Assembly: GCA_019119365.1 (NCBI GenBank)
Contig: DWXD01000014.1
Location: 1 to 64,000, forward strand
DNA length: 64,000 nt
Direction of reading: 5' to 3'
DNA from: Candidatus Gemmiger stercoripullorum
GTDB lineage: Bacteria; Bacillota; Clostridia; Oscillospirales; Ruminococcaceae
The notes under the pieces: generated by a model
Databases searched by the model: none
What the model was told of the DNA's origin: nothing
The model's input: only the letters and a program-made list of their open reading frames with translations
In this document: positions 19,907-62,616 of the stretch, piece by piece
Position numbering within the stretch: the stretch's first letter is position 1
How the letters are laid out: each line of letters begins with the position of its first letter
Made by a program: the position numbers and the translations under genes

Positions 19907-20734
19907 ATGCCGGTTGCCCCCAAAACTGTCCTTTGCATCCACGACCTGCCCGGGTTTGGCCGGGCGGGGCTCGCGGTGATCGTTCCCATCCTTTCGGCGC
20001 TGGGCCTGCAGGCCGTGGTCCTGCCCACAGCCGTGCTTTCCACCCACACGGGCGGGCTGGGCGCCCCGGCTCGCCTTTCGAGCCCCGGCTACGGCCCGGC
20101 GGCGCTGGCGCACTACCGGCGGCTGGGCGTGCGGTTCGACTGCATCTATTCCGGTTATCTTTCCGAGCCGGGCCAGGCGCTGCTGGTGGAGCAGGCGATG
20201 GAATACTGGCCCGGGGCGCTCAAGGTCGTGGACCCGGTCATGGGCGACCACGGCCGCCTGTACAGCGGTCTGCCGGGCGAGATGGTCCCGGCGATGTACG
20301 CGCTGTGTTCCCGCGCCGATTTGATCCTGCCCAACGCGACCGAAGCCGCGCTGCTGCTGGGGGACCCGCTGCCGGGCAGCGCCGCGCCGGAATACGCGGC
20401 CGGGGCGGCCGAGCGCCTGACCCGCCTGTGCCCGCAGGTGCTGCTGACCGGCGTTACGGCCGGGCGCAGCGTTCTGTGCGTGGGCGCGCAGCGCGGGCAG
20501 GACGGCTACACCGTGCGCACGCCGCTGCTGCGGCCGTTCCACGGCACGGGGGATATTTTCGGCGCCGCGATGGTGGGGCGGCTTTTGCAGGGCAACGCCC
20601 CGCAGGCCGCCGCGCAGGCCGCCGCCGTGTTTGTGGGCGATTGCCTGCGCGCCACGCCGGAGGGCGCGGACGAACGGCTGGGCGTGTGGCTGGAAAGCGT
20701 GCTGCCCCGCCTGCTGCCCGCCGGGGAGAACTAA
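19907..20734 (+). CDS. pdxK: Pyridoxal/pyridoxamine kinase
   Basis: CIHDLPGFGRAGLAVIVPILSALGLQAVVLPTAVLSTHTGG...VDPVMGDHGRLYSG...LPNATEAALLLG. Confidence 0.88.
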   Translation: MPVAPKTVLCIHDLPGFGRAGLAVIVPILSALGLQAVVLPTAVLSTHTGGLGAPARLSSPGYGPAALAHYRRLGVRFDCIYSGYLSEPGQALLVEQAMEYWPGALKVVDPVMGDHGRLYSGLPGEMVPAMYALCSRADLILPNATEAALLLGDPLPGSAAPEYAAGAAERLTRLCPQVLLTGVTAGRSVLCVGAQRGQDGYTVRTPLLRPFHGTGDIFGAAMVGRLLQGNAPQAAAQAAAVFVGDCLRATPEGADERLGVWLESVLPRLLPAGEN

Positions 20735-20775
20735 CGCGCCCCGCCCTATTTTCCGAAAGAAGGAAGTCAAAAAAC

Positions 20776-21273
20776 ATGCCTGTCATCAACATCGTACTTG
20801 TAGAGCCGCAGATCCCGCAGAACACCGGCAACGTGGCGCGCACCTGCGCCGTGACCGGCGCGCGGCTGCACCTGGTGGGGCCGATGGGTTTCACGCCCGA
20901 CGATAAAAAATTAAAGCGCGCCGGGCTTGACTATTGGTCCCAACTTGATATAACATACTATCAGGACCTGTCTGAATTTTGGGCCGCCAACCGGGGCCCG
21001 TATTTCTTCTTTACCTCCAAGGGCACGCACCGCCACACCGATGTTTCGTACCCCGACGGCGCGTATCTCGTCTTCGGGCGGGAGGACGCCGGACTGCCGG
21101 AGGAACTGCTGGCCGCCCACCCGGAGCAGTGCGTGCGCATTCCGATGCGCCGGGGCGAGCGATGCCTGAACCTGTCCAACTCGGTGGCTGTCGGCGTATA
21201 CGAAGCGCTGCGGCAATGGGATTTCGAGGACCTGGGGACCCGCGGACAACTGACCAAATACGAATGGAAGTGA
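20776..21273 (+). CDS. trmL: tRNA (cytidine(34)-2'-O)-methyltransferase
   Basis: MPVINIVLVEPQIPQNTGNVARTCAVTGARLHLVGPMGF...FGREDAGLPEEL...RCLNLSNSVAVGVYEALRQ. Confidence 0.95.
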   Translation: MPVINIVLVEPQIPQNTGNVARTCAVTGARLHLVGPMGFTPDDKKLKRAGLDYWSQLDITYYQDLSEFWAANRGPYFFFTSKGTHRHTDVSYPDGAYLVFGREDAGLPEELLAAHPEQCVRIPMRRGERCLNLSNSVAVGVYEALRQWDFEDLGTRGQLTKYEWK

Positions 21274-21282
21274 GAGGACCCG

Positions 21283-22188
21283 ATGGAACGCAAAATCGCG
21301 ATCGTGACCGATTCCAGCTGCGATATTCCGCAGGACCTGGCTGAAAAGTACGGCATCGACATCATCGACTTTCCGATCAACCTGGACGGAAAGGAATACT
21401 TTGAGCGCCGCGACCTAACGCGGGAAGAGTTTTACGAACTGATGCGGCAGGCCAAAGGCGTGCCCACCACCGCCGCCATCACGATGCTGCAGTGGCACGA
21501 CGTTTATGCCAAATACGCCGACGAAGAGTATACCGACGTGCTGCATGTGAGCATCAACAGCACCGGCTCCGCCACCTACGGCTATGCCCAGCAGGCGGCC
21601 GAAATGCTGCGCGAGGAACGCCCCGACTGCAAAATGCGCATCCATCTGGTGGACAGCCACACCTATTCAATGGTGTTCGGCTGGTACCTGTGCGAATGCG
21701 CGCGCAAGCTGCGCAACGGCGGCGAGCTGCGCGACTGCATCCTGGAGCTGGAGAGCAAGCTCGGCCGCGTGGAGATCGGCCTGGCCGCCTACAGCCTCAA
21801 ACAGCTGAAAAAATCCGGGCGCGTATCCGCCGCCGCGGCGTTTGCCGGGGAACTGCTGGGCCTGCGCCCGATCATCAGCCTGACCGACGGCGTCAGCCAT
21901 GTGGAGGCCAAAGTGCGCGGCGACGCCGCCGTGATCCCCGCGATGCTCAAATGGGTCAGCACCCGCGTGGACGACATGCGCGACACCCCCTACATGATGG
22001 CGTACACCTCCAGCACCCAGAAGCGCGACGAACTGCTCAAGCTGTGCAAGAAGGAGTTCGGCCACCCGCCGATGCATATCTTCCAGCTGGGCGGCGTGGT
22101 CAGCGCCAACACCGGGCCGGACTGCATCGCCATTGCCTTTGAGGGCAAGCCCCGCCGCCTGGCGGACTATGAACCGCCGCTGCCGTAA
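21283..22188 (+). CDS. DegV-family fatty-acid-binding protein (FakB-like)
   Basis: MERKIAIVTDSSCDIPQDLAEKYGIDIIDFPINLDGKEYFERRDLTREEFYELMRQ...VPTTAAIT. Confidence 0.92.
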   Translation: MERKIAIVTDSSCDIPQDLAEKYGIDIIDFPINLDGKEYFERRDLTREEFYELMRQAKGVPTTAAITMLQWHDVYAKYADEEYTDVLHVSINSTGSATYGYAQQAAEMLREERPDCKMRIHLVDSHTYSMVFGWYLCECARKLRNGGELRDCILELESKLGRVEIGLAAYSLKQLKKSGRVSAAAAFAGELLGLRPIISLTDGVSHVEAKVRGDAAVIPAMLKWVSTRVDDMRDTPYMMAYTSSTQKRDELLKLCKKEFGHPPMHIFQLGGVVSANTGPDCIAIAFEGKPRRLADYEPPLP

Positions 22189-22207
22189 TTTTAACCGACA
22201 CCCCGCC

Positions 22208-22235
22208 GGGGCGCTTGCCAGCGCCCCGTTTTTTT
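22208..22235 (+). terminator. Rho-independent terminator whose loop is TTGCCA
   Basis: GGGGCGCttgccaGCGCCCCgTTTTTTT. Confidence 0.9.
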
Positions 22236-22243
22236 GTTATAAT
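22215..22243 (+). promoter_or_regulatory. Promoter TTGCCA-17-TATAAT nested in the degV terminator, driving queT
   Basis: -35 TTGCCA 22215-22220, -10 TATAAT 22238-22243, exact 17-bp spacer. Confidence 0.75.
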
Positions 22244-22249
22244 AGCCAA

Positions 22250-22356
22250 CTGTTGAGCAACTTAGGATTTTAGGCTCCGCCGCCCGGCACCGCCGGGCGG
22301 CGAAAAACCGGCCGGGGCTGGCGGTCCCGCGCGCGGTCAAAATCTATCCGCCGGAG
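22250..22356 (+). ncRNA. preQ1-III riboswitch upstream of queT
   Basis: GAGCAACTTAGGATTTTAGGCTCC...GGGGCTGGCGGTCCCGCGCGCGGTCAAAATCTATCCGCCGGAG closely matches my recollection of the Faecalibacterium prausnitzii preQ1-III aptamer; GGCGG/CCGCC helix abuts the SD GGAG 6 nt before the queT ATG. Confidence 0.9.
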
Positions 22357-22362
22357 TGTATT

Positions 22363-22986
22363 ATGCTGAAATGGATCGTTGTGTTTGCGGCTGCCGTACT
22401 GGCAGCCTTTTTGGGCGTTCGCCTGGCGCTGCGCAGGCAGCCGGCCGGTGCGCCCCCGCGGCAGGACCGCACCGCGCGCCTTGTGCGCTGCGGCATGATC
22501 GCCGCCGTGTATGTGGTGCTGTGCCTGGCGCTGCAGCCGTTTTCCTACGGCGCGGTGCAGGTGCGCCTGGCCGAAGCGCTGTGCCTGCTGCCCGTGTTCG
22601 GGGCCGAGTACATCGTCGGCGTCACGCTGGGCTGCCTTCTGGCCAATGCGCTCGGTTCGACCGTGATCGACGTCGTGTTCGGCACGCTGGCCACGCTGCT
22701 GGCCTGCCTTGTCACCTGGCGGCTGCGCAGCCTGCGCGTGCGCGGGCTGGCTTTGCCCGCCGCTGTGCCGCCGGTCGTTTTTAACGCGCTGATCGTCGGC
22801 TGGGAGATCAGCTTCTTCTTTTCCGACACACCGGCCACATTGCCGGTCACGCTGTTCAACATGCTGACCGTCGGCATTGGCGAGGTCATCAGCTGCGGCG
22901 TGCTCGGCGTCGCGCTTGTCAAGCTGATCGAGCACAACCCGGCGCTGCGGCGTATGTTTGCCGCCGGGCAGACGCACGCCGCCTGA
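22363..22986 (+). CDS. queT: QueT-family queuosine-precursor ECF transporter S component
   Basis: AAVYVVLCLALQPFSYGAVQVRLAEALCLLPVFGAEYIVGVTLGCLLANALGSTVIDVVFGTLATLLACL. Confidence 0.9.
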   Translation: MLKWIVVFAAAVLAAFLGVRLALRRQPAGAPPRQDRTARLVRCGMIAAVYVVLCLALQPFSYGAVQVRLAEALCLLPVFGAEYIVGVTLGCLLANALGSTVIDVVFGTLATLLACLVTWRLRSLRVRGLALPAAVPPVVFNALIVGWEISFFFSDTPATLPVTLFNMLTVGIGEVISCGVLGVALVKLIEHNPALRRMFAAGQTHAA

Positions 22987-23024
22987 ACCGCCAAAAATGC
23001 CGCTTTCATGGGGAGGGAAACGAA

Positions 23025-23684
23025 ATGACGGCCGATTTGATCCTGTGGGACTGGAACGGAACGCTGCTGGACGATGTCGCGCTGTGCGTGGACGCGCTCA
23101 ACCGCCTGCTCCGGCGCTACGGCTATCCGCAGCAGTACGATCTTGATGCTTACCGGGATATTTTCGGTTTCCCCGTGGAGGAATATTATGTGCGGGCCGG
23201 GTTTGATTTTTCCCGCCACCCGTTCCCGGTGCTGGCCGAAAGCTATATGCAGGACTATCTCCCCCATTCGGCCGCCTGCCCGCTGGCGCAGGGAGCCCAA
23301 GAAACGCTGGAAGCCTTCCGCACCGCCGGGCTGCGCCAGGTGGTCCTGTCGGCCTCGCCGGCCGACACGCTGGCACACCAGGTAACGCAGCGCGGTATCC
23401 GCCCGTATTTTGACGAGCTGCTGGGCCTTTCCGATATCTATGCCCGCAGCAAGGTGGCCATCGGGCTCGCTTATCTGCAGCGCAGCGGCTTTGCGCCGGA
23501 GCGCTGCGTGATGATCGGCGATTCGGTGCACGATGCCGAGGTCGCGCAGGCGCTGGGCGTGCGCTGTGTGCTTTTGTGCAGCGGCCACCAGAGCGAGGCT
23601 GCGCTGAAAGCCGCCGGCGCGCCGGTATACCCCGATTTGCCGGAAGCGGCGGCCGCTATCCTGCGGCAGGCGCAGGCACAATAA
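23025..23684 (+). CDS. HAD-superfamily hydrolase (phosphoglycolate phosphatase-like)
   Basis: [22 protein letters not shown]...VVLSASP...[24 protein letters not shown]. Confidence 0.9.
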
Positions 23685-23697
23685 AAATATCGTTTCG

Positions 23698-23740
23698 CAC
23701 CCGCGCAGGTTTGACAAGGCCCCCTGCGCGGGTGTATTAT
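23698..23740 (+). promoter_or_regulatory. Inverted repeat (11-bp arms) enclosing -35 TTGACA, followed by -10 TATTAT; secA promoter and probable terminator
   Basis: CACCCGCGCAGgtTTGACAaggcccCTGCGCGGGTGTATTAT; 18-bp spacer. Confidence 0.75.
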
Positions 23741-23812
23741 TATGAGGTGTATGTAAAGCACCCGGACCAAATACATTCGCCGCCCAGACGGCAGAAAACA
23801 GGGGTTTACGAT

Positions 23813-26686
<2,874 letters not shown>

Positions 26687-26756
26687 TATCACATCCAGGC
26701 AGGCGCCGCGCCCGATGGGCGCGGCGCCTGCGCTTTTGCAAAACGGAGGAAACCGG

Positions 26757-27158
26757 ATGAAGGCACATGTATCAGCCGAGCCGCGCTGCGCGCTCGTGTG
26801 GAACTTTGCCCCCAGCGCGCCGGGCTACGGCGCGCTGGAGCTGGCGGCGCGGCGCTTCCGCCTGCGGCTGCGCGCGGTGGGGCCGCAGGACCTGGGGGCG
26901 CGCGTGGCCGACCTGTGCGCCGGGCGGCCCGGCCAAGCAGCACCGCTTGGCGCAAACGCCCCGGCGCTGCCTGCGCTGATCGTCAGCGGGCTGGACCATA
27001 CGGACGGAAGTCTCGGGCAGTTTTTGGACGCGGTGCAGCGCGGCGGGGCCGGCATCCCGCTGCGGGCGATGGTAACGCCGGTGAGCCGGACCTGGACGCT
27101 GGCCGAGCTGCTCAACGAGCTGAACGCCGAACATAAGGCCGTCAGGGGGCAGGCATGA
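26757..27158 (+). CDS. DUF3783-family protein
   Basis: ALIVSGLDHTDGSLGQFLDAVQRGGAGIPLRAMVTPVSRTWTLAELLNELNAEH; overlaps apbE start (ATGA). Confidence 0.75.
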   Translation: MKAHVSAEPRCALVWNFAPSAPGYGALELAARRFRLRLRAVGPQDLGARVADLCAGRPGQAAPLGANAPALPALIVSGLDHTDGSLGQFLDAVQRGGAGIPLRAMVTPVSRTWTLAELLNELNAEHKAVRGQA

Positions 27159-28243
27159 GCCGCCGCCTTCTGGCCGCCCTGGCCGGGCTCGCGCTGGCCG
27201 CCGTCTTTGCAATCAGCTTTTACCGCGACCGCACACAGCCCCAAGAATACAGCACGACCTGGTGGGACCTGTTCGACACCGTAACCGTTGTGACCGGTTA
27301 CGCCGCCAGCGAAGCCGAATGGCAGGCGCAGACGGACGCGCTGTACGCAGACCTTTTGCGCTGCCACCAGCTGTTTGACATCTACGCGCGCTATGACGGG
27401 CTGGTGAACCTGGCCGACGTCAACGCACAGGCGGCGGCCGGGCCGGTGGCTGTCAGCGACGAGCTGATGGCGCTGCTGCAGTTCGGCAAAGAAGCGTATG
27501 AAGCGACCGGCGGCGCGTGCAACATTGCCGCCGGAACGGTGCTCTCGCTGTGGCACGATGCGCGCGAGGCCATTCAAGCCGCGCAGGCGGCCACCGGCGA
27601 GAGCGCCGCGGACGGCGGCGAGCTGCGCGCACTGCTGCCCGACGGCGCCGCGCTGGCACAGGCCGCCGCGCATATGGATATCGACAGCCTTGTGCTGGAC
27701 GAAGCGGCCGGGACGGTCTTTTTTGCCGACCCGCAGCTCAAGCTGGACGTGGGGGCCATCGCCAAAGGCTGGGCGCTGGAACGCGCCGCGCAGGCCGCCG
27801 AGGCGCGCGGGCTGGAAAGCGCGCTGCTCAACGCCGGGGGCAGCGTGCGGGCCATCGGCACAAAGCCGGACGGCACGCGCTGGACGGCCGGGGTGCGCGG
27901 CCTGGACGAAGCCTATCCCCCGCTGGCCGAAGTGACGCTGGAACCCGGGCAGAGTTTGATCGTGAGCGGCGACCAGGAACGGTATTTCACGCTGGACGGC
28001 GTGCGCTACCACCACCTTATTGACCTGCAAACGCTGCAGCCCGCCCGCTATTGCCGCCAGATCGCGGTGCTGGGCCAAGACGCCGGTTGGGGCGACGCGC
28101 TTTCTACCGGGCTGTTCTGCCTGGCGCCGGAACAGGGCGCGGCGCTGCTTGACAGCGGCGGCACGCCCGGCGCGGCAGCGCTGTGGGCGTTTGAGGACGG
28201 CAGTATACAAACTTCGCCGGGCTGGCCCGGGCAAACCGGTTGA
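27155..28243 (+). CDS. apbE: FAD:protein FMN transferase
   Basis: DLFDTVTVVTGY...VNLADVNAQ...DVGAIAKGWALERAAQAAEARGLESALLNAGGSVRAIG...HHLIDLQT. Confidence 0.9.
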   Translation: MSRRLLAALAGLALAAVFAISFYRDRTQPQEYSTTWWDLFDTVTVVTGYAASEAEWQAQTDALYADLLRCHQLFDIYARYDGLVNLADVNAQAAAGPVAVSDELMALLQFGKEAYEATGGACNIAAGTVLSLWHDAREAIQAAQAATGESAADGGELRALLPDGAALAQAAAHMDIDSLVLDEAAGTVFFADPQLKLDVGAIAKGWALERAAQAAEARGLESALLNAGGSVRAIGTKPDGTRWTAGVRGLDEAYPPLAEVTLEPGQSLIVSGDQERYFTLDGVRYHHLIDLQTLQPARYCRQIAVLGQDAGWGDALSTGLFCLAPEQGAALLDSGGTPGAAALWAFEDGSIQTSPGWPGQTG

Positions 28244-28266
28244 CCCGGCCCGCAAAAACAGAAGGA

Positions 28267-28310
28267 CCCCCGCCTGGGCAGCGCCGCGGCCGCCCCGGGC
28301 GGGGGCTTTT
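28267..28310 (+). terminator. Rho-independent terminator after apbE
   Basis: CCCCCGCCtGGGCaGCgccgcGGCcGCCCcGGGCGGGGGCTTTT. Confidence 0.75.
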
Positions 28311-28684
28311 CAAAAGACATGATACGGTTCATGCGGCTGGGGCAAAAGCCCCATGGAAACGCCGAGGGCTTCGTCCACGCGCTGCATATCCTCGGGCGGG
28401 ATGCGCCCGGCGCGCTCGCGCAGGCGACGTTTGTCCAGCGTGCGGATCTGCTCGGTCAGCACAATGCTGTCCTTGGCCAGGCCGCAGCGGTCCGCGCGCA
28501 CGCCGATGTGGGTGGGCAGGCGGTTTTTGTCCTGCCGCGAGGTGATGGCCGCCGCGATGACGGTGGGGCTGTGGCGGTTGCCGATCTCGTTCTGGATGAT
28601 AAGTACCGGCCGCACGCCGCCCTGCTCGCTGCCGACGACCGGGCTCAGGTCCGCGTAAAAGACTTCTCCTCTGTGCACTTCCAT
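28310..28684 (-). CDS. MazF/PemK/EndoA-family endoribonuclease toxin
   Basis: MEVHRGEVFYADLSPVVGSEQGGVRPVLIIQNEIGNRHSPTVIAAAITSRQDKNRLPTHIGV...DSIVLTEQIRTLDKRRL. Confidence 0.92.
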   Translation of the reverse strand: MEVHRGEVFYADLSPVVGSEQGGVRPVLIIQNEIGNRHSPTVIAAAITSRQDKNRLPTHIGVRADRCGLAKDSIVLTEQIRTLDKRRLRERAGRIPPEDMQRVDEALGVSMGLLPQPHEPYHVF

Positions 28685-28697
28685 CTGCTGGCCCTCC

Positions 28698-28723
28698 CTG
28701 TAAGTTGTTTGTGACACTTACAG
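28698..28723. promoter_or_regulatory. 8-10-8 inverted repeat CTGTAAGT...ACTTACAG in mazF 5' region, overlapping -10 TATACT
   Basis: ctgtaagttgtttgtgacacttacagtata. Confidence 0.65.
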
Positions 28724-28744
28724 TATAAGCAGCGCGGATGGTTT

Positions 28745-29152
28745 TTAATCACCCCTGCGCTCGAGCACCGCAAACGCAAGCGCCAGACCGCCGTCATGGC
28801 TCAGCGAAAGATGCGCCGTGAGGCGCTTTTCGGCCGCCCAGGCCGCCGCCGCGCCGGACAGCGCGTAGTACGGCGCGCCGCTTTCACGCCGCAGCACGGC
28901 GATCTCGGCGAGCGCAAAGCCGCCCAGCCCCACGCCGCAGGCTTTCAGGAATGCTTCCTTGGCGGCGAAGTTGGCGGCGGCGGTCTCCCAGCGGGCCTTG
29001 CCGCTGCGCGCGGCGAGCAGGGCCTGCTCCTGCGCCGAAAAAACGCGGTGCAAAAACGCCTCGCGCTGCAGGCAGCGCTCCATGCGGGCGGACTGGCACA
29101 GGTCGGTCCCGATGCCAAAGATCCCGGCTGTTTCAGCGCACATAGGTGACAT
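28745..29152 (-). CDS. acpS: Holo-[acyl-carrier-protein] synthase
   Basis: IFGIGTDLCQSARMERCLQREAFLHRVFSAQEQALL...NFAAKEAFLKACGVGL...HLSLSHDGGLALAFAV; exact start (29152 or 29143) uncertain. Confidence 0.92.
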   Translation of the reverse strand: MSPMCAETAGIFGIGTDLCQSARMERCLQREAFLHRVFSAQEQALLAARSGKARWETAAANFAAKEAFLKACGVGLGGFALAEIAVLRRESGAPYYALSGAAAAWAAEKRLTAHLSLSHDGGLALAFAVLERRGD

Positions 29153-29669
29153 AGCCTTCCTTGCGCGGGGCGGCGGGCTTCTCCCCTTCCGGCGCGGGAT
29201 AGCCGAGGATGCAGTTGCCGATGCCCTCCAGGCGTTCGGCGTTGGGCACGCCCCATTTTTGCAGCAGGGCCTTGCCTTCGGCGGTGGCGAACACCTCTTT
29301 GGCGCGGTGTATCCAGCAGCTGCCCAGCCCCAGGCTGGCGGCGGCGTTGAGCAGGTTGCCCATCACAAGGCTGCCGTCGTACTGGTATGTACCGCAGGCG
29401 GTATCTGCCAGCACGACGAGCACGGTGAGTGCGCCGTAGAACGGGTCGCCGTCAGAGCCCATGATGGCGGCATTCATGCGGGAAAGTTCGTCCCGCGCGG
29501 CTTTGTCCTGCACGGCGACGATGACCGGGCTCTGGCGGCCCATGCCGGTGGGGGCAAACGTCCCGGCCTGCAGCACGGCGTCCAGCGTTTCGGCGTCCAC
29601 CTGGCGGTCAAGGTACGCGCGGCAGCTGCGGCGCGTTTCGAGGGTATGCAGGGTCTCGTTGGTCAACAT
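29133..29669 (-). CDS. Nitroreductase-family protein
   Basis: LETRRSCRAYLDRQVDAETLDAVLQAGTFAPTGMGRQSPVIVAVQD...LGSCWIHRAKEVF. Confidence 0.9.
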   Translation of the reverse strand: MLTNETLHTLETRRSCRAYLDRQVDAETLDAVLQAGTFAPTGMGRQSPVIVAVQDKAARDELSRMNAAIMGSDGDPFYGALTVLVVLADTACGTYQYDGSLVMGNLLNAAASLGLGSCWIHRAKEVFATAEGKALLQKWGVPNAERLEGIGNCILGYPAPEGEKPAAPRKEGYVTYVR

Positions 29670-29888
29670 ACAGATTCCACCTTTCTTTTGGCGTAAGCGG
29701 CGGACCGGCGCCCGCCGGGTTCACTCGCCGGTTTGTTTTGTATTGTTTATGTTATTATACCACAAAGGAGGTCGCTGCGGCACACTTTTTTGGCGCAGGA
29801 TGCGGCAAAAATCGGTTTTTGGGCCGCCGGGGCGCATCGTTAACCAAAAGTTCATTTTTATTTTCCAAGATTTGACGTTCGAGACCTT

Positions 29889-29917
29889 GCAGTTTTGTAG
29901 GAATTACGGTATACTAA
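29889..29917 (+). promoter_or_regulatory. Promoter TTGCAG-17-TATACT for pckA
   Basis: TTGCAGTTTTGTAGGAATTACGGTATACT. Confidence 0.7.
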
Positions 29918-29960
29918 CCATGGTAAACGAAATACTGGGATACAAGGAGGTATTTCCCCA

Positions 29961-31565
29961 ATGAAAAACATTGACCTTACCAAATACGGTATCACCGGCA
30001 CCACCGAGATCGTGCACAACCCTTCTTATGAAGAGCTGTTCGCCGAGGAGACCAAGCCCGGCCTGGAAGGCTACGAGAAGGGCCAGGTCAGCGAACTGGG
30101 CGCCGTCAACGTGATGACCGGCATCTACACCGGCCGTTCCCCCAAGGACAAGTTCATCGTTATGGACGAGACCTCCAAGGACACCGTGTGGTGGACCACC
30201 CCCGAGTACAAGAACGACAACAAGCCCGCCAGCAAGGAAGCCTGGGCTGCCTGCAAGAAGCTGGCCATCGAAGAGCTTTCCAACAAGAAGCTGTATGTGA
30301 TGGACGTGTTCTGCGGCGCCAACAAGGACACCCGCATGGCCATCCGCTTCATCATGGAAGTGGCCTGGCAGGCGCACTTCGTTAAGAACATGTTCATCCA
30401 GCCCACCGCGGAAGAGCTCGAGAACTTTGAGCCCGACTTTATCTCCTTCAACGCCTCCAAGGCGAAGGTCGAGAACTACAAGGAGCTGGGCCTGAACTCT
30501 GAGACGGCCGTCGTCTTCAACCTCACCGACCGCGAGCAGGTCATCCTGAACACCTGGTACGGCGGCGAGATGAAGAAGGGCATGTTCTCGATGATGAACT
30601 ACTACCTGCCGCTCAAGGGCATGGCTTCGATGCACTGCTCCGCCAACACCGACATGAACGGCGAGAACACCGCCCTGTTCTTCGGTCTGTCCGGCACCGG
30701 CAAGACCACCCTTTCCACCGACCCGAAGCGTCTGCTGATCGGCGACGACGAACACGGCTGGGACGATAACGGCGTCTTCAACTTTGAGGGCGGCTGCTAT
30801 GCCAAGGTCATCGACCTGGACAAGGATTCCGAGCCCGACATCTACAACGCCATCAAGCGCAACGCCCTGCTGGAGAACGTCACGCTGGACGAAAACGGCA
30901 AGATCGACTTCCATGACAAGAGCGTGACCGAGAACACCCGCGTGTCCTATCCGATCGACCACATCGAGAAGATCGTGCGCCCGGTTTCCGCTGGTCCCGA
31001 CGCCAAGAACGTCATCTTCCTGTCCGCCGACGCCTTCGGCGTGCTGCCCCCGGTCTCCATCCTGACCCCGGAGCAGACCGAGTACTACTTCCTGTCCGGT
31101 TTCACCTCCAAGCTGGCCGGCACCGAGCGCGGCATCACCGAGCCCACCCCGACCTTCTCCGCCTGCTTCGGCCAGGCCTTCCTCGAACTGCATCCCACCA
31201 AGTATGCGGAGGAACTGGTCAAGAAGATGCAGAAGTCCGGCGCGAAGGCGTACCTCGTCAACACCGGCTGGAACGGCACCGGCAAGCGCATCTCCATCAA
31301 GGATACCCGCGGCATCATCGACGCGATCCTCGACGGCTCCATCAAGACTGCGCCGACCAAGACCATCCCCTACTTCAACTTTGAAGTGCCCACCGAGCTG
31401 CCCGGCGTTGACCCCGCCATCCTCGACCCGCGCGACACCTATGCCGACGCGGCCGAGTGGGATACCAAGGCCAAGGATCTGGCTTCCCGCTTCCAGAAGA
31501 ACTTCGTCAAGTACGAAAGCAACGAAGCCGGCAAGGCCCTTGTGCCCGCCGGTCCGCAGCTGTAA
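29961..31565 (+). CDS. pckA: Phosphoenolpyruvate carboxykinase (ATP)
   Basis: [16 protein letters not shown]...[26 protein letters not shown]; strong SD. Confidence 0.98.
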
Positions 31566-31606
31566 GCGGCCGCCCGCCGCCTGAACGGCAGCCAACAGAA
31601 CCGCAG

Positions 31607-31642
31607 AGCCCCTGCCCCGCTTTTGCCCGGCAGGGGCTTTTT
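31607..31642 (+). terminator. Rho-independent terminator after pckA
   Basis: AGCCCCTGCCccgcttttgcccGGCAGGGGCTTTTT. Confidence 0.92.
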
Positions 31643-31712
31643 GCATGCTTTGCGTTGCGGCGGCGCGGCCGGCGTGGTATACTGTACGCAGAATGTTAGG
31701 GAGGGAGATATC

Positions 31713-32111
31713 ATGTATCAAGCAGGAGACGCCATGATCGAGGTGCGCGAGCTGCTCATCAAGGCGTTCGCATCGGCCTGGCGCGTGCGGGAAAGCGCGC
31801 TGCAGGCAACCGACCGGGACAGCTATATCCAGAGCAGCATCACCGTGATCGATACGCTGCAGGTCAGCCCCGAGATGATCTACGCCGAGGAAGGCCCCGG
31901 CCTGACCGACGGCGAGGAGCTGGACCACCTGGACGATCTTGTGCGCGCCGACGGCGTTTGGGTGTACTACGGCGTGCCGGAGGAGAGCTTTTTCCTTGTG
32001 ACCTGGATGGAAGACGCGGCGGCCGCGCAGCAGAAAGTCAGCGACCTGCAGGCGCAGGGCGGCTGTGTGGCCTGCGTGGTCGATTTAAGCGAAACATGGC
32101 GTTTTGACTGA
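31713..32111 (+). CDS. Hypothetical protein (132 aa)
   Basis: Own promoter TTGCGG-17-TATACT, SD GGGAGGGAG, overlaps the cca ORF region. Confidence 0.7.
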   Translation: MYQAGDAMIEVRELLIKAFASAWRVRESALQATDRDSYIQSSITVIDTLQVSPEMIYAEEGPGLTDGEELDHLDDLVRADGVWVYYGVPEESFFLVTWMEDAAAAQQKVSDLQAQGGCVACVVDLSETWRFD

Positions 32112-32139
32112 CGCCGAAAAAAGTGAAAGGAGGCCGCCT

Positions 32140-33531
32140 GTGGAGACCAAACTGCAACTGCCCCTGCCGCCGGTGGTGGCTGCGCTGCTGCGCACGCTGC
32201 AGGCGGCCGGGCACCAGGCGTTCGTTGTGGGCGGCTGCGTGCGGGACAGCCTGCTTGGCCGCGCGCCGGAGGACTGGGATATCTGCACAAGCGCGCAGCC
32301 CGGCGAGGTCGAAGCGCTGTTCCAGGGCCGCCGCCTGCTGCTGAACGGGAAAAAGCACGGCACGGTGGCCGTGGTGGAAGGCGGCAAAAGCTGGGAGATC
32401 ACGACCTTCCGCTGCGACGGCGCCTATAGCGACGGCCGCCACCCAGACGCCGTGCGCTTTGTTCCCGATGTGCGGCAGGACCTGGCGCGGCGGGATTTCA
32501 CGGTTAACGCGATGGCCTGGTCCCCTGCCGCCGGTCTGGTCGACCCGTTTGGCGGGCAGGCGGACCTGCGCGCCGGGGTGCTGCGCTGTGTCGGCGACCC
32601 CAACGCCCGCTTTGCCGAGGACGCGCTGCGCGTGCTGCGCGCGCCGCGGTTTGCGGCGCAGCTGGGTTTTGCGCTGGAGCCGGGCACGGCCGCGGCCGCG
32701 CGGCGCTGCCGCGGCGGCGTTGCGCTGGTATCGCCGGAGCGCATTTTTACCGAGCTGGACAAGCTGCTGGCCGGGGCGCAGGCCGGGCGTGTGCTGGCGC
32801 AGTACGGGGAGATCCTGGCCGGGGCGCTGCCGGAGATCTTGCCCTGCATCGGCTGCACACAGCCGAGCCGCTGGCACTGTTATGACGTCTGGCAGCACAC
32901 GGCCGTGGCTGTGGGGGCGGTCGAAGCGCACGCACTGGCGCAGACGCTGACCGGCCACGGCGATGCGCGCGGCGCGCGCGTGCTGCGCTGGGCCGCGCTG
33001 CTGCACGACCTAGGCAAGCCCGCCTGCCGCACCGAGGACGCCGACGGCACGGCCCACTTCCCCGGGCACAACCAGCGCGGCGGACGCATGGCGCGGGAGA
33101 TCCTGCTGCGCCTGCGCGCGCCCGCCAGCCTGACCGAAGGCGCGGCGGCCCTGGTGGCCGTGCACGATGCGCCGCTGCCTGCCGCCGACGCGGACATCCT
33201 GCGGCTGCTGCACCGGCGCGGGGCGGTGTTTTTGCGGCGGCTGTGCCAGCTGAAACTGGCCGACCTGGCCGCCCACGCACAGAACGCGGCGGTCACAGCG
33301 CGCTGGCAGGAAGTCACGCAGTTTGCCGCCCGCATGGAGACGCTGGCCGCAGACGGCTGCTACCGGCTGGACCGGCTGGCCGTGAACGGCGGCGATGTGC
33401 TGGCTGCGGGCCTGCGCCCCGGCCCGGCCGTGGGGCAGGCGCTGGACATCCTGCTCAACGCCGTGATGGACGGCACGCTGCCCAACGAGCGCACAGCGCT
33501 GCTGGCTGCGCTGCAGCGCGGGTTCTTATAA
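32140..33531 (+). CDS. cca: CCA tRNA nucleotidyltransferase
   Basis: HQAFVVGGCVRDSLLGRAPEDWDICTSA...RRDFTVNAMAW...HD domain; GTG start with AAAGGAGG SD. Confidence 0.94.
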   Translation: METKLQLPLPPVVAALLRTLQAAGHQAFVVGGCVRDSLLGRAPEDWDICTSAQPGEVEALFQGRRLLLNGKKHGTVAVVEGGKSWEITTFRCDGAYSDGRHPDAVRFVPDVRQDLARRDFTVNAMAWSPAAGLVDPFGGQADLRAGVLRCVGDPNARFAEDALRVLRAPRFAAQLGFALEPGTAAAARRCRGGVALVSPERIFTELDKLLAGAQAGRVLAQYGEILAGALPEILPCIGCTQPSRWHCYDVWQHTAVAVGAVEAHALAQTLTGHGDARGARVLRWAALLHDLGKPACRTEDADGTAHFPGHNQRGGRMAREILLRLRAPASLTEGAAALVAVHDAPLPAADADILRLLHRRGAVFLRRLCQLKLADLAAHAQNAAVTARWQEVTQFAARMETLAADGCYRLDRLAVNGGDVLAAGLRPGPAVGQALDILLNAVMDGTLPNERTALLAALQRGFL

Positions 33532-61471: not shown

Positions 61472-62098
61472 TCACCACTTGGCCTTGGTCTCCACGACCT
61501 TGCCTGCGATATAGAGGTGGTCCAGTTCTTCCCCCTTGATGACGAGGTCCTCATAGGCCGGGTTGAACGGATGCAACACGACCGCGTTGCCGCGCTGGAT
61601 ATATTTTTTCAGCGTGCCCTCCCCGTCCAGGCCGTAGACCATAACGCCAAGGTCGCCGTTATCAAGCGTGGTCTGGCGGCGCACCAGTGCCAGGTCGCCG
61701 TCCGAAATGCGGGGCTCCATGCTGTCGCCCTTGACCACGAGGTAAAAATAGTTCTGCGGGTCCTTGACGCTGGCATATTCTTTGCCGTAGTCCTCCTCAA
61801 AGGCGAGCGCACCGTAACCGGCGCGGACCGTGCCGACGACGGGGATCAGGTATTCGCCAAAGCTGGCAAAAGCGTTGCGGCCGACCGCGCCGGGGACGGA
61901 ATTTTCGCGCAGGCCCAGCAAGGCGTCCGCCGTGGTATCCAGGATCTCGGCCAGCTGGGCCACGGTCTGAGGGTCCGGCGTGGAGCGGCCGGTCTCCCAC
62001 TTGCCAACGGCCTGCTGGGTGACGCCGAGGCGGTGGGACAGCTCGGCCTGGCTGTATTTCTTTGCCCTGCGGGCTTCTTTCAAGCGTTCTGCAAACAT
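61472..62098 (-). CDS. XRE-HTH + S24 peptidase (LexA/CI-like) transcriptional repressor
   Basis: MFAERLKEARRAKKYSQAELSHRLGVTQQAVGKWETGRSTPD...VRAG cleavage-site-like; VKGDSMEPRISDGDLALV; GTLKKY. Confidence 0.92.
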   Translation of the reverse strand: MFAERLKEARRAKKYSQAELSHRLGVTQQAVGKWETGRSTPDPQTVAQLAEILDTTADALLGLRENSVPGAVGRNAFASFGEYLIPVVGTVRAGYGALAFEEDYGKEYASVKDPQNYFYLVVKGDSMEPRISDGDLALVRRQTTLDNGDLGVMVYGLDGEGTLKKYIQRGNAVVLHPFNPAYEDLVIKGEELDHLYIAGKVVETKAKW

Positions 62099-62154
62099 CG
62101 CGCGTGCTCCTTACCTTGGGCGGGGCAAGCCCCGCGGCATGTTTCATTGGCACC

Positions 62155-62183
62155 ATTATACAACCAATGGTAGTTTTTGTAAA
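62155..62183 (-). promoter_or_regulatory. Promoter TTTACA-17-TATAAT of the S24 regulator, with operator O1 (ACAACCaatGGTAGT) in the spacer
   Basis: Minus strand TTTACAAAAACTACCATTGGTTGTATAAT. Confidence 0.75.
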
Positions 62184-62227
62184 GGGTGCCTGCCGGGAAT
62201 TTTTTGGAATTTTTGTTGTATAACGTC

Positions 62228-62256
62228 TTGACAACAACCGTTAGTTGTATTATTCT
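62228..62256 (+). promoter_or_regulatory. Promoter TTGACA-17-TATTCT of the divergent small membrane protein, with operator O2 (ACAACCgttAGTTGT) in the spacer
   Basis: TTGACAacaaccgttagttgtatTATTCT region, exact spacing 17. Confidence 0.75.
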
Positions 62257-62264
62257 GGAAATAT

Positions 62265-62303
62265 AAAACAACCGGCGGTTGTTTTCAGAACCAAAATACA
62301 ACC
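62265..62303. promoter_or_regulatory. Operator O3 (AAAACAACCggcGGTTGTTTT, perfect) and half-site O4 (ACAACC at 62298)
   Basis: Same ACAACC-3-GGTTGT motif as O1/O2. Confidence 0.75.
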
Positions 62304-62346
62304 GCCGAAACACCTGATATAAAGAGAAACAACGGAGGAACTTGTG

Positions 62347-62616
62347 ATGAAACAACAGATGGTAAAACGCTGGCTGTGCCAATTTTTGCTGATCGCGCTC
62401 GGGTTTGTGCTGCTGGGTCTGGCCAGCGCGGCCGCCCAGGGTACCCTGTCGGTCCCGGCGGCGCTGGGGTTGGCCCTGGCCGCGCTGCTGGGCATGAACG
62501 TGCTGTGCGGTGCGCTGGCGCCCGCTGCGCCGCAGAAGGCGGCCGCGCCGGTCCGCCGCCCGGCGGCCCCTGTGCGTGTGCCGCTGCAGGTCGTGCGCGG
62601 CGGCCGCGCAGCCTGA
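62347..62616 (+). CDS. Small membrane protein (89 aa), two predicted TM segments and Pro/Arg-rich tail
   Basis: MKQQMVKRWLCQFLLIALGFVLLGLASAAAQGTLSVPAALGLALAALLGMNVLCGALAPAAPQKAAAPVRRPAAPVRVPLQVVRGGRAA; GGAGG SD 8 nt upstream. Confidence 0.75.
   Translation: MKQQMVKRWLCQFLLIALGFVLLGLASAAAQGTLSVPAALGLALAALLGMNVLCGALAPAAPQKAAAPVRRPAAPVRVPLQVVRGGRAA

Follow-up and report, generated by a model that had tools for sequence, protein, structure and literature searches.

The XRE/CI-type repressor with an S24 peptidase domain encoded in the window (the whole 64-kb stretch of DNA that we analyzed) is, as we hold with considerable confidence, a chromosomal SOS repressor that replaces canonical LexA in an Oscillospiraceae/Ruminococcaceae clade, and that would govern both a regulon marked by the operator ACAAC-N5-GTTGT and a divergently encoded membrane effector; its DNA-binding, cleavage, and inducibility are inferred. 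An earlier note on this DNA had proposed a mini SOS-like switch whose most immediate target would be a small membrane protein. Comparative evidence supports this switch and this target, but the term "mini" is too narrow, since the operator is also found at recA, at uvrBA, and at one gene for a Y-family polymerase, and since LexA is almost entirely missing.

Faecalibacterium, Gemmiger, and their relatives are abundant human gut bacteria, and within the open-licence literature we found no paper on SOS regulation in these organisms; our prediction names a repressor, an operator, and targets. It would add an independent LexA replacement by a phage-type repressor to the cases known from the Bacteroidetes, the Streptococcaceae (HdiR), and Francisella (FddR), would provide a graded natural series for the LexA hand-over, a model proposed from Francisella, and points to a new SOS-controlled membrane-protein family with a predicted built-in C-terminal degradation signal.

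The S24 Repressor Gene and Its Product

The repressor gene (61472-62098, minus strand) encodes a protein of 208 amino acids in which Pfam recognizes an HTH_3 domain (1.3e-15) and a Peptidase_S24 domain (3.3e-24). The best reading of this architecture is a repressor of the XRE/CI-type helix-turn-helix plus S24 peptidase class, a putative non-canonical LexA. LexA and lambda CI are its top matches, both by sequence and by fold (the latter in the PDB), and the AF2 model consists of a strandless five-helix N-domain followed by an S24 C-domain. A canonical LexA was ruled out as an assignment by the TIGR00498 score, the domain content, and the position of the protein in the tree described below: it scored 72.1 bits against a cut-off of 110.95 in an alignment limited to residues 85-202, and Pfam gave no match to the winged-HTH DNA-binding domain of LexA, detecting HTH_3 instead.

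The serine of the GDSMEP motif, a lysine, and the Ala-Gly pair of VRAG had already been pointed out in the earlier note. We recovered them as Ser126, Lys164 (GTLKK), and Ala93-Gly94 (V-R-A-G), all of which are invariant in an alignment of 16 S24 orthologues. Judged by these residues, the protein qualifies as a putative autocleavable repressor; RecA-stimulated self-cleavage itself is inferred. It is the sole full-length S24 repressor that we detected in the source genome (2.2 Mb, Gemmiger-like), where one of the two other PF00717 matches is a signal peptidase I according to NCBIfam and the second resembles signal peptidase I by sequence.

Operators Within Both Divergent Promoters

The shared operator ACAAC-N5-GTTGT is located inside both divergent promoters. 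The repressor promoter (62155-62183, minus strand) is composed of a -35 region TTTACA (62183-62178) and a -10 region TATAAT (62160-62155) separated by a spacer of 17 bases; O1 (ACAACCAATGGTAGT, 62160-62174), which deviates from ACAACCNNNGGTTGT by one mismatch and is conserved in relatives, is positioned in this spacer and overlaps the -10 region by one base. The earlier note had given O1 as 62160-62175; its place in the repressor promoter holds, while the end coordinate has to be corrected to 62174. The promoter of the small membrane-protein gene (62228-62256, plus strand) possesses the hexamers TTGACA (62228-62233) and TATTCT (62251-62256), and its 17-base spacer (62234-62250) harbors O2 (ACAACCGTTAGTTGT, 62234-62248; one mismatch), just as had been described. 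The same holds for O3 (ACAACCGGCGGTTGT, 62268-62282), a perfect core within a palindrome (62265-62285) just downstream of the small-gene promoter and 34 bp downstream of O2, and for the half-site O4 (ACAACC, 62298-62303, plus strand), for which the sequence is the only basis. O1, O2, and O3 are the only matches to ACAACCNNNGGTTGT with at most one mismatch in the entire window.

This arrangement is widely retained. An operator within two mismatches is present at 79 of 80 relatives' loci, and a divergent small gene could be recovered at 71 of them; non-conservation of the divergent ORF and its operators, which according to the earlier note would have refuted the proposal, was not observed. Under a strict promoter test, an equivalent of the O1-bearing promoter was found in 66 of the 80 loci. 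An operator embedded in a divergent promoter of the form TTGANN-N16..18-TANNNT occurred at 60 of the 80 loci, compared to none of 3950 shuffled controls, and the spacer of these 60 promoters measured 17 bases in 59 cases and 18 in one. The distance between O1 and O2 clusters at 73-74 bp among the relatives' loci, and that between O2 and O3 is 34 bp in 27 relatives.

The position of O1 is the one at which an autoregulation site of a non-canonical LexA would be expected, although there are no binding data. In the absence of a binding assay one might suppose that another regulator recognizes ACAAC-N5-GTTGT and that the S24 protein is a mere bystander, but we regard this as hardly tenable: throughout the clade the S24 gene bears the motif within its own promoter, the motif is absent upstream of the canonical lexA genes found in this family (where no operator within one mismatch, only sequences with two or more, was found), and a palindrome with a fixed spacer suits a dimeric S24 repressor. 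The link between the operator and the S24 protein, which we favor over such a bystander role, is inferred from their co-occurrence and from the apparent autoregulation.

Distribution of the Repressor and Absence of LexA

S24 orthologues are encoded by members of Gemmiger, Faecalibacterium, Fournierella, Pygmaiobacter, and Anaerofilum. They were found in 16 of 81 genomes of the family, with 54-81% identity to the source protein. A canonical LexA scoring above the TIGR00498 cut-off is encoded by 47 of these 81 genomes, and only two possess both proteins: LexA is missing in 14 of the 16 genomes with an S24 orthologue and present in 45 of the 65 others (Fisher p=9e-5). This p-value is not corrected for phylogeny, and since the S24 orthologues form one clade, it treats what may have been one or a few losses of LexA as many. 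No canonical LexA above the cut-off was detected in any of 14 named genomes, which include F. prausnitzii, F. hattorii, F. gallinarum, G. formicilis ATCC 27749, G. gallinarum, Fournierella massiliensis, and Pygmaiobacter massiliensis. The source genome is about 90% complete, so that its own lack of LexA is no proof; the relatives and the named strains carry this point. Several genomes that are at least 95% complete contain neither LexA above the cut-off nor an S24 orthologue (G003, G010, G015, G027, G028, G035, G058, G068, and G072).

In the phylogenetic tree, the S24 orthologues constitute one clade (SH-aLRT 92) and the canonical LexA proteins another (100). The nearest neighbors of the S24-orthologue clade are S24 proteins of phages and prophages, with modest support. 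Since several of the viral entries are on long branches, a phage origin of the repressor appears likely rather than demonstrated. No relative above 40% identity exists among 2.9 million viral contigs, which indicates that the S24 gene is firmly established in the chromosome. We did not rely on MT839076, an unverified "phage" record of 4.6 kb without annotation that shows 71% identity, since it probably represents a piece of host DNA.

The Predicted Regulon

We scanned for the regulon by pattern and by gene searches. The source genome contains eight sites with at most one mismatch to ACAACCNNNGGTTGT; three of these are at the S24 locus, one is within an ORF, one is upstream of recA (contig C33), one upstream of a GyrB/ParE-like gene (C5), and two are at a prophage-like locus (C9). 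A further operator, with one half-site mismatch, is located upstream of uvrBA, and together these sites suggest an SOS regulon. The earlier note had looked to a genome-wide scan to define the regulon. Targets beyond the locus were indeed found (recA and uvrBA), but sites with two mismatches are not enriched (43 in the source genome versus 141 for the reversed pattern). Such loose counting fell below its control and was dismissed as uninformative, and the case for the operator rests for this reason on position and conservation and not on counts. Exact matches to ACAAC-N5-GTTGT are likewise near the control level in many relatives, and we used only their positions.

An exact operator upstream of recA is present in 19 of 28 genomes, namely in 13 of 14 named genomes, in each of which it precedes the recA match by no more than 163 bp, and in 6 of 14 others. 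The named set with this operator includes F. prausnitzii, F. hattorii, F. gallinarum, G. formicilis ATCC 27749, and G. gallinarum, as well as Fournierella massiliensis and Pygmaiobacter massiliensis. One additional genome among the 14 others, the seventh, has a recA site with one mismatch; a good recA operator was found neither in the remaining 7 of these 14 nor in Anaerofilum. Operators at uvrB(A) were detected in three genomes, as exact sites in G054 and G075 and with one mismatch in the source genome. Error-prone polymerases often form part of the SOS core; an operator at a Y-family polymerase gene was seen in G079 only, and this enzyme was dropped as a general target. The operator at the GyrB/ParE-like gene (G000:C5:41302-41316; L020) lies inside the promoter of that gene in the source genome alone among 14 genomes examined; since it was not found in the 13 relatives, we do not consider this gene a conserved target. 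As a control, the upstream regions of gyrB contained no operator within one mismatch. These predicted sites upstream of SOS genes (recA, uvr, polymerase) are what one would require of a non-canonical LexA.

Operators at Prophage-Like and Mobile-Element Loci

The C9 locus of the source genome (G000:C9, about 20341-33300; L019 4842-11001, L360 1-6841) is a compact prophage-like morphogenesis locus with genes for a transcription regulator, a terminase, a major head protein, a head-tail adaptor, a tape measure protein, a tail protein, and a peptidase/endolysin-like protein. It is flanked by a cardiolipin-synthase-like gene and by trpS/greA/lysS-like genes, and carries two exact operators, one of them in the promoter of the first gene. 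We recognized neither an integrase nor a dedicated repressor among its listed ORFs, and the locus possibly encodes a domesticated particle that is controlled directly by the SOS system of the host; no operator was found near terminase homologues in relatives. In relatives, operators in promoter-like surroundings were also present at loci that carry recombinases or otherwise resemble mobile elements (L103 2966-3021 in G054:C7; L105 3024-3068 in G020; L106 2976-2990 in G008), with two operators preceding a Ccr-like large serine recombinase in L103. Their placement suggests that mobile elements may make use of the host repressor, and prophage and recombinase loci with the host operator may be co-induced by DNA-damaging drugs.

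These sites, together with the XRE-S24 architecture and the proximity of the repressor to phage repressors in the tree, are what would be expected if the S24 locus were merely the immunity module left behind by a prophage or mobile element and not an SOS regulator. We consider this very unlikely in view of the chromosomal S24 orthologues in many species and genera, the lack of close viral relatives described above, the operators at recA and uvrBA, and the absence of LexA from most carriers. Moreover, the earlier note had seen no recognizable phage genes at the locus, and we likewise saw no integrase or structural genes adjoining the S24 gene. A role as chromosomal SOS repressor is the reading that we adopt in what follows.

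The Divergently Encoded Small Membrane Protein

The gene transcribed divergently from that of the repressor (62347-62616, plus strand; ATG preceded by GGAGG) encodes a helical-hairpin membrane protein of 89 amino acids that ends in ...GGRAA. The ORFs recovered in relatives range from 78 to 104 amino acids, and their products share a layout in which a basic N-terminus is followed by two hydrophobic helices and these by a basic tail; the AF2 model shows a helical hairpin with helices at residues 2-30 and 35-56 (mean pLDDT 78). No significant family match was found in Pfam, PHROGs, or NCBIfam (66 members for Pfam and NCBIfam), and fold searches in BFVD and the PDB returned nothing significant beyond scattered weak matches that we judged to be due to chance. 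As far as these comparisons can tell, this membrane protein with its two helices is unclassified.

In six F. prausnitzii-type genomes (L211, L212, L214, L216, L217, and L219), the small gene and the divergent operators were not found and the self-operator is kept. In L211, the one of these loci that was read through, sequences resembling tRNAs occupy the usual place of the divergent gene. In L116 (G025:C4 62500-68500), a transposase-like gene separates the S24 gene from the divergent promoter-operator, which stays intact on the far side. Among the remaining loci without a small-gene call, one runs off its contig and L221 is unresolved.

The only invariant residue in 66 aligned small proteins is the C-terminal alanine. 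Among 71 C-termini, 51 read -AA, 16 read -VA, -SA, or -IA, and 4 read -AAS; an ending of the type -[AVSI]A is found in 67 small proteins, compared to 1 of 189 other nearby genes. The codons for the terminal alanines vary synonymously. A terminal Ala-Ala is the main element by which ClpXP recognizes the ssrA tag (PMC7652416), and the C-terminus of the small protein looks like a ClpXP-type degron that would permit its fast removal after stress. Degradation data are lacking, and in SosA the C-terminus, which restrains the activity of the protein, is extracytoplasmic (PMC6851548); the -AA ending might have a different role, for example in partner binding or in recognition by a different protease. 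This is in our opinion unlikely, since conservation is focused on the final two to three positions of a predicted-cytoplasmic tail that varies elsewhere, with synonymous codon changes, and since the endings conform to the Ala-Ala-COO- rule of ClpXP (PMC7652416). We retain the putative ClpXP degron as the working interpretation.

As to function, we give roughly even chances to the idea that the small protein is an unstable SOS division inhibitor, an activity that is inferred. Its main rival assumes the same circuit with a membrane-depolarising or pore-forming stress peptide, akin to TisB or to class II holins, that induces dormancy. The hairpin with its short loop and basic tail has a holin-like outline, two members gave weak matches to a holin family, and SOS-controlled membrane peptides such as TisB exist; this possibility is a serious one, even if we are inclined to doubt it. 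None of its family or structural matches is significant, and the place of the gene beside that of the SOS repressor is the one held by division inhibitors such as SosA (PMC6851548). A division inhibitor remains the preferred interpretation.

The Proposed Circuit and an Inferred LexA Hand-Over

In undamaged cells, a dimer of the S24 protein would be bound to ACAAC-N5-GTTGT; its occupancy of O1 would autoregulate the S24 gene, and that of O2 and O3, in and downstream of the divergent promoter, would keep the small membrane protein tightly repressed. It would also occupy sites over the recA promoter and, depending on the genome, upstream of uvrBA, the GyrB/ParE-like gene, the Y-family polymerase gene, and mobile elements. 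Upon DNA damage, RecA-ssDNA filaments would induce the repressor to cleave itself at Ala93-Gly94, with Ser126/Lys164 as catalytic residues, and derepression would follow; this step is inferred from the chemistry of the S24 family. The small protein, a predicted two-helix inner-membrane hairpin with a basic, presumably cytoplasmic tail ending in -AA, would most likely block division or otherwise act at the membrane during repair, and would then be cleared by ClpXP via its C-terminal signal, as we infer.

Two genomes (G073 and G064) have kept LexA and possess basal S24 orthologues, the divergent membrane gene, and operators; no recA operator was found in either of them. A good recA site is also absent in some LexA-free lineages (e.g., Anaerofilum, G031, and G041), and the recA operator is present in Gemmiger, Faecalibacterium, Fournierella, and Pygmaiobacter. 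This distribution of LexA, of the divergent unit, and of the recA site is in line with a succession in which a self-contained divergent unit preceded the recruitment of SOS genes, as has been modeled for FddR of Francisella (PMC13148647). The direction of the series is inferred from the tree and is not proven. It is tentatively, and with slightly less than even confidence, that we combine these strands into one picture: a phage-derived SOS repressor in a dominant gut clade, whose core output would be a membrane-hairpin checkpoint protein with an ssrA-like degron, and in which the stages of the hand-over (LexA together with the unit, loss of LexA, recruitment of recA/uvrBA, and loss of the partner in F. 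prausnitzii) may have been preserved.

Comparison With Known Systems

The S24 protein shares with canonical LexA the S24 C-terminal domain, the Ala-Gly site, and the Ser/Lys pair; it differs in its CI-like instead of winged HTH, in its separate clade in the tree, and in its operator. HdiR of Lactococcus and Streptococcus is likewise a LexA-like S24 repressor in Firmicutes that lack LexA, and we know of no divergent membrane protein in the case of HdiR. As summarized elsewhere, HdiR controls its own gene, umuC, and, in S. thermophilus, cinA-recA (PMC8565304).

SosA of Staphylococcus aureus offers a parallel to the small protein: it is a membrane protein of small size under SOS control, and its gene diverges from that of the SOS repressor; it inhibits division, and C-terminal trimming raises its activity (PMC6851548). 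SosA has one helix and an extracellular C-terminus (PMC6851548), whereas the small protein has two helices and a predicted cytoplasmic -AA tail. YneA of Bacillus subtilis has a LysM domain, which the small protein does not contain, and no sequence or family match to SosA or YneA was found for the 66 members (Pfam/NCBIfam). The resemblance to SosA is one of position and logic and not of sequence, with control by the repressor inferred from the position of the operators.

The non-canonical LexA of the Bacteroidetes resembles the S24 system in several respects: a phage-type N-terminal HTH is joined to an S24 domain, LexA is replaced, the operator is a palindrome whose spacer measures 5 bases, and recA and repair genes belong to the regulon (PMC8565304), as is predicted for the Gemmiger clade. 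Type II topoisomerase genes feature in both regulons, as parCE in the Bacteroidetes (PMC8565304) and as the putative GyrB/ParE-like target in the source genome only. The Bacteroidetes motifs are CTAA-N5-TTAG and GGA-N5-TTC (PMC8565304), in contrast to ACAAC-N5-GTTGT, and the Gemmiger clade is further set apart by its different bacterial affiliation, by polymerases that are mostly outside the predicted regulon, and by the divergent membrane protein. FddR of Francisella recognizes GTG-N11-CAC and canonical SOS genes are not induced in this organism (PMC13148647), whereas operators are found at recA/uvrBA in the Gemmiger clade; no function is known for its main partner gene (PMC13148647), whereas that of the Gemmiger clade encodes a membrane hairpin. 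FddR nevertheless has in common with the S24 system a self-contained divergent unit built around an autoregulated phage-type S24 repressor, in a background without a canonical SOS LexA (PMC13148647).
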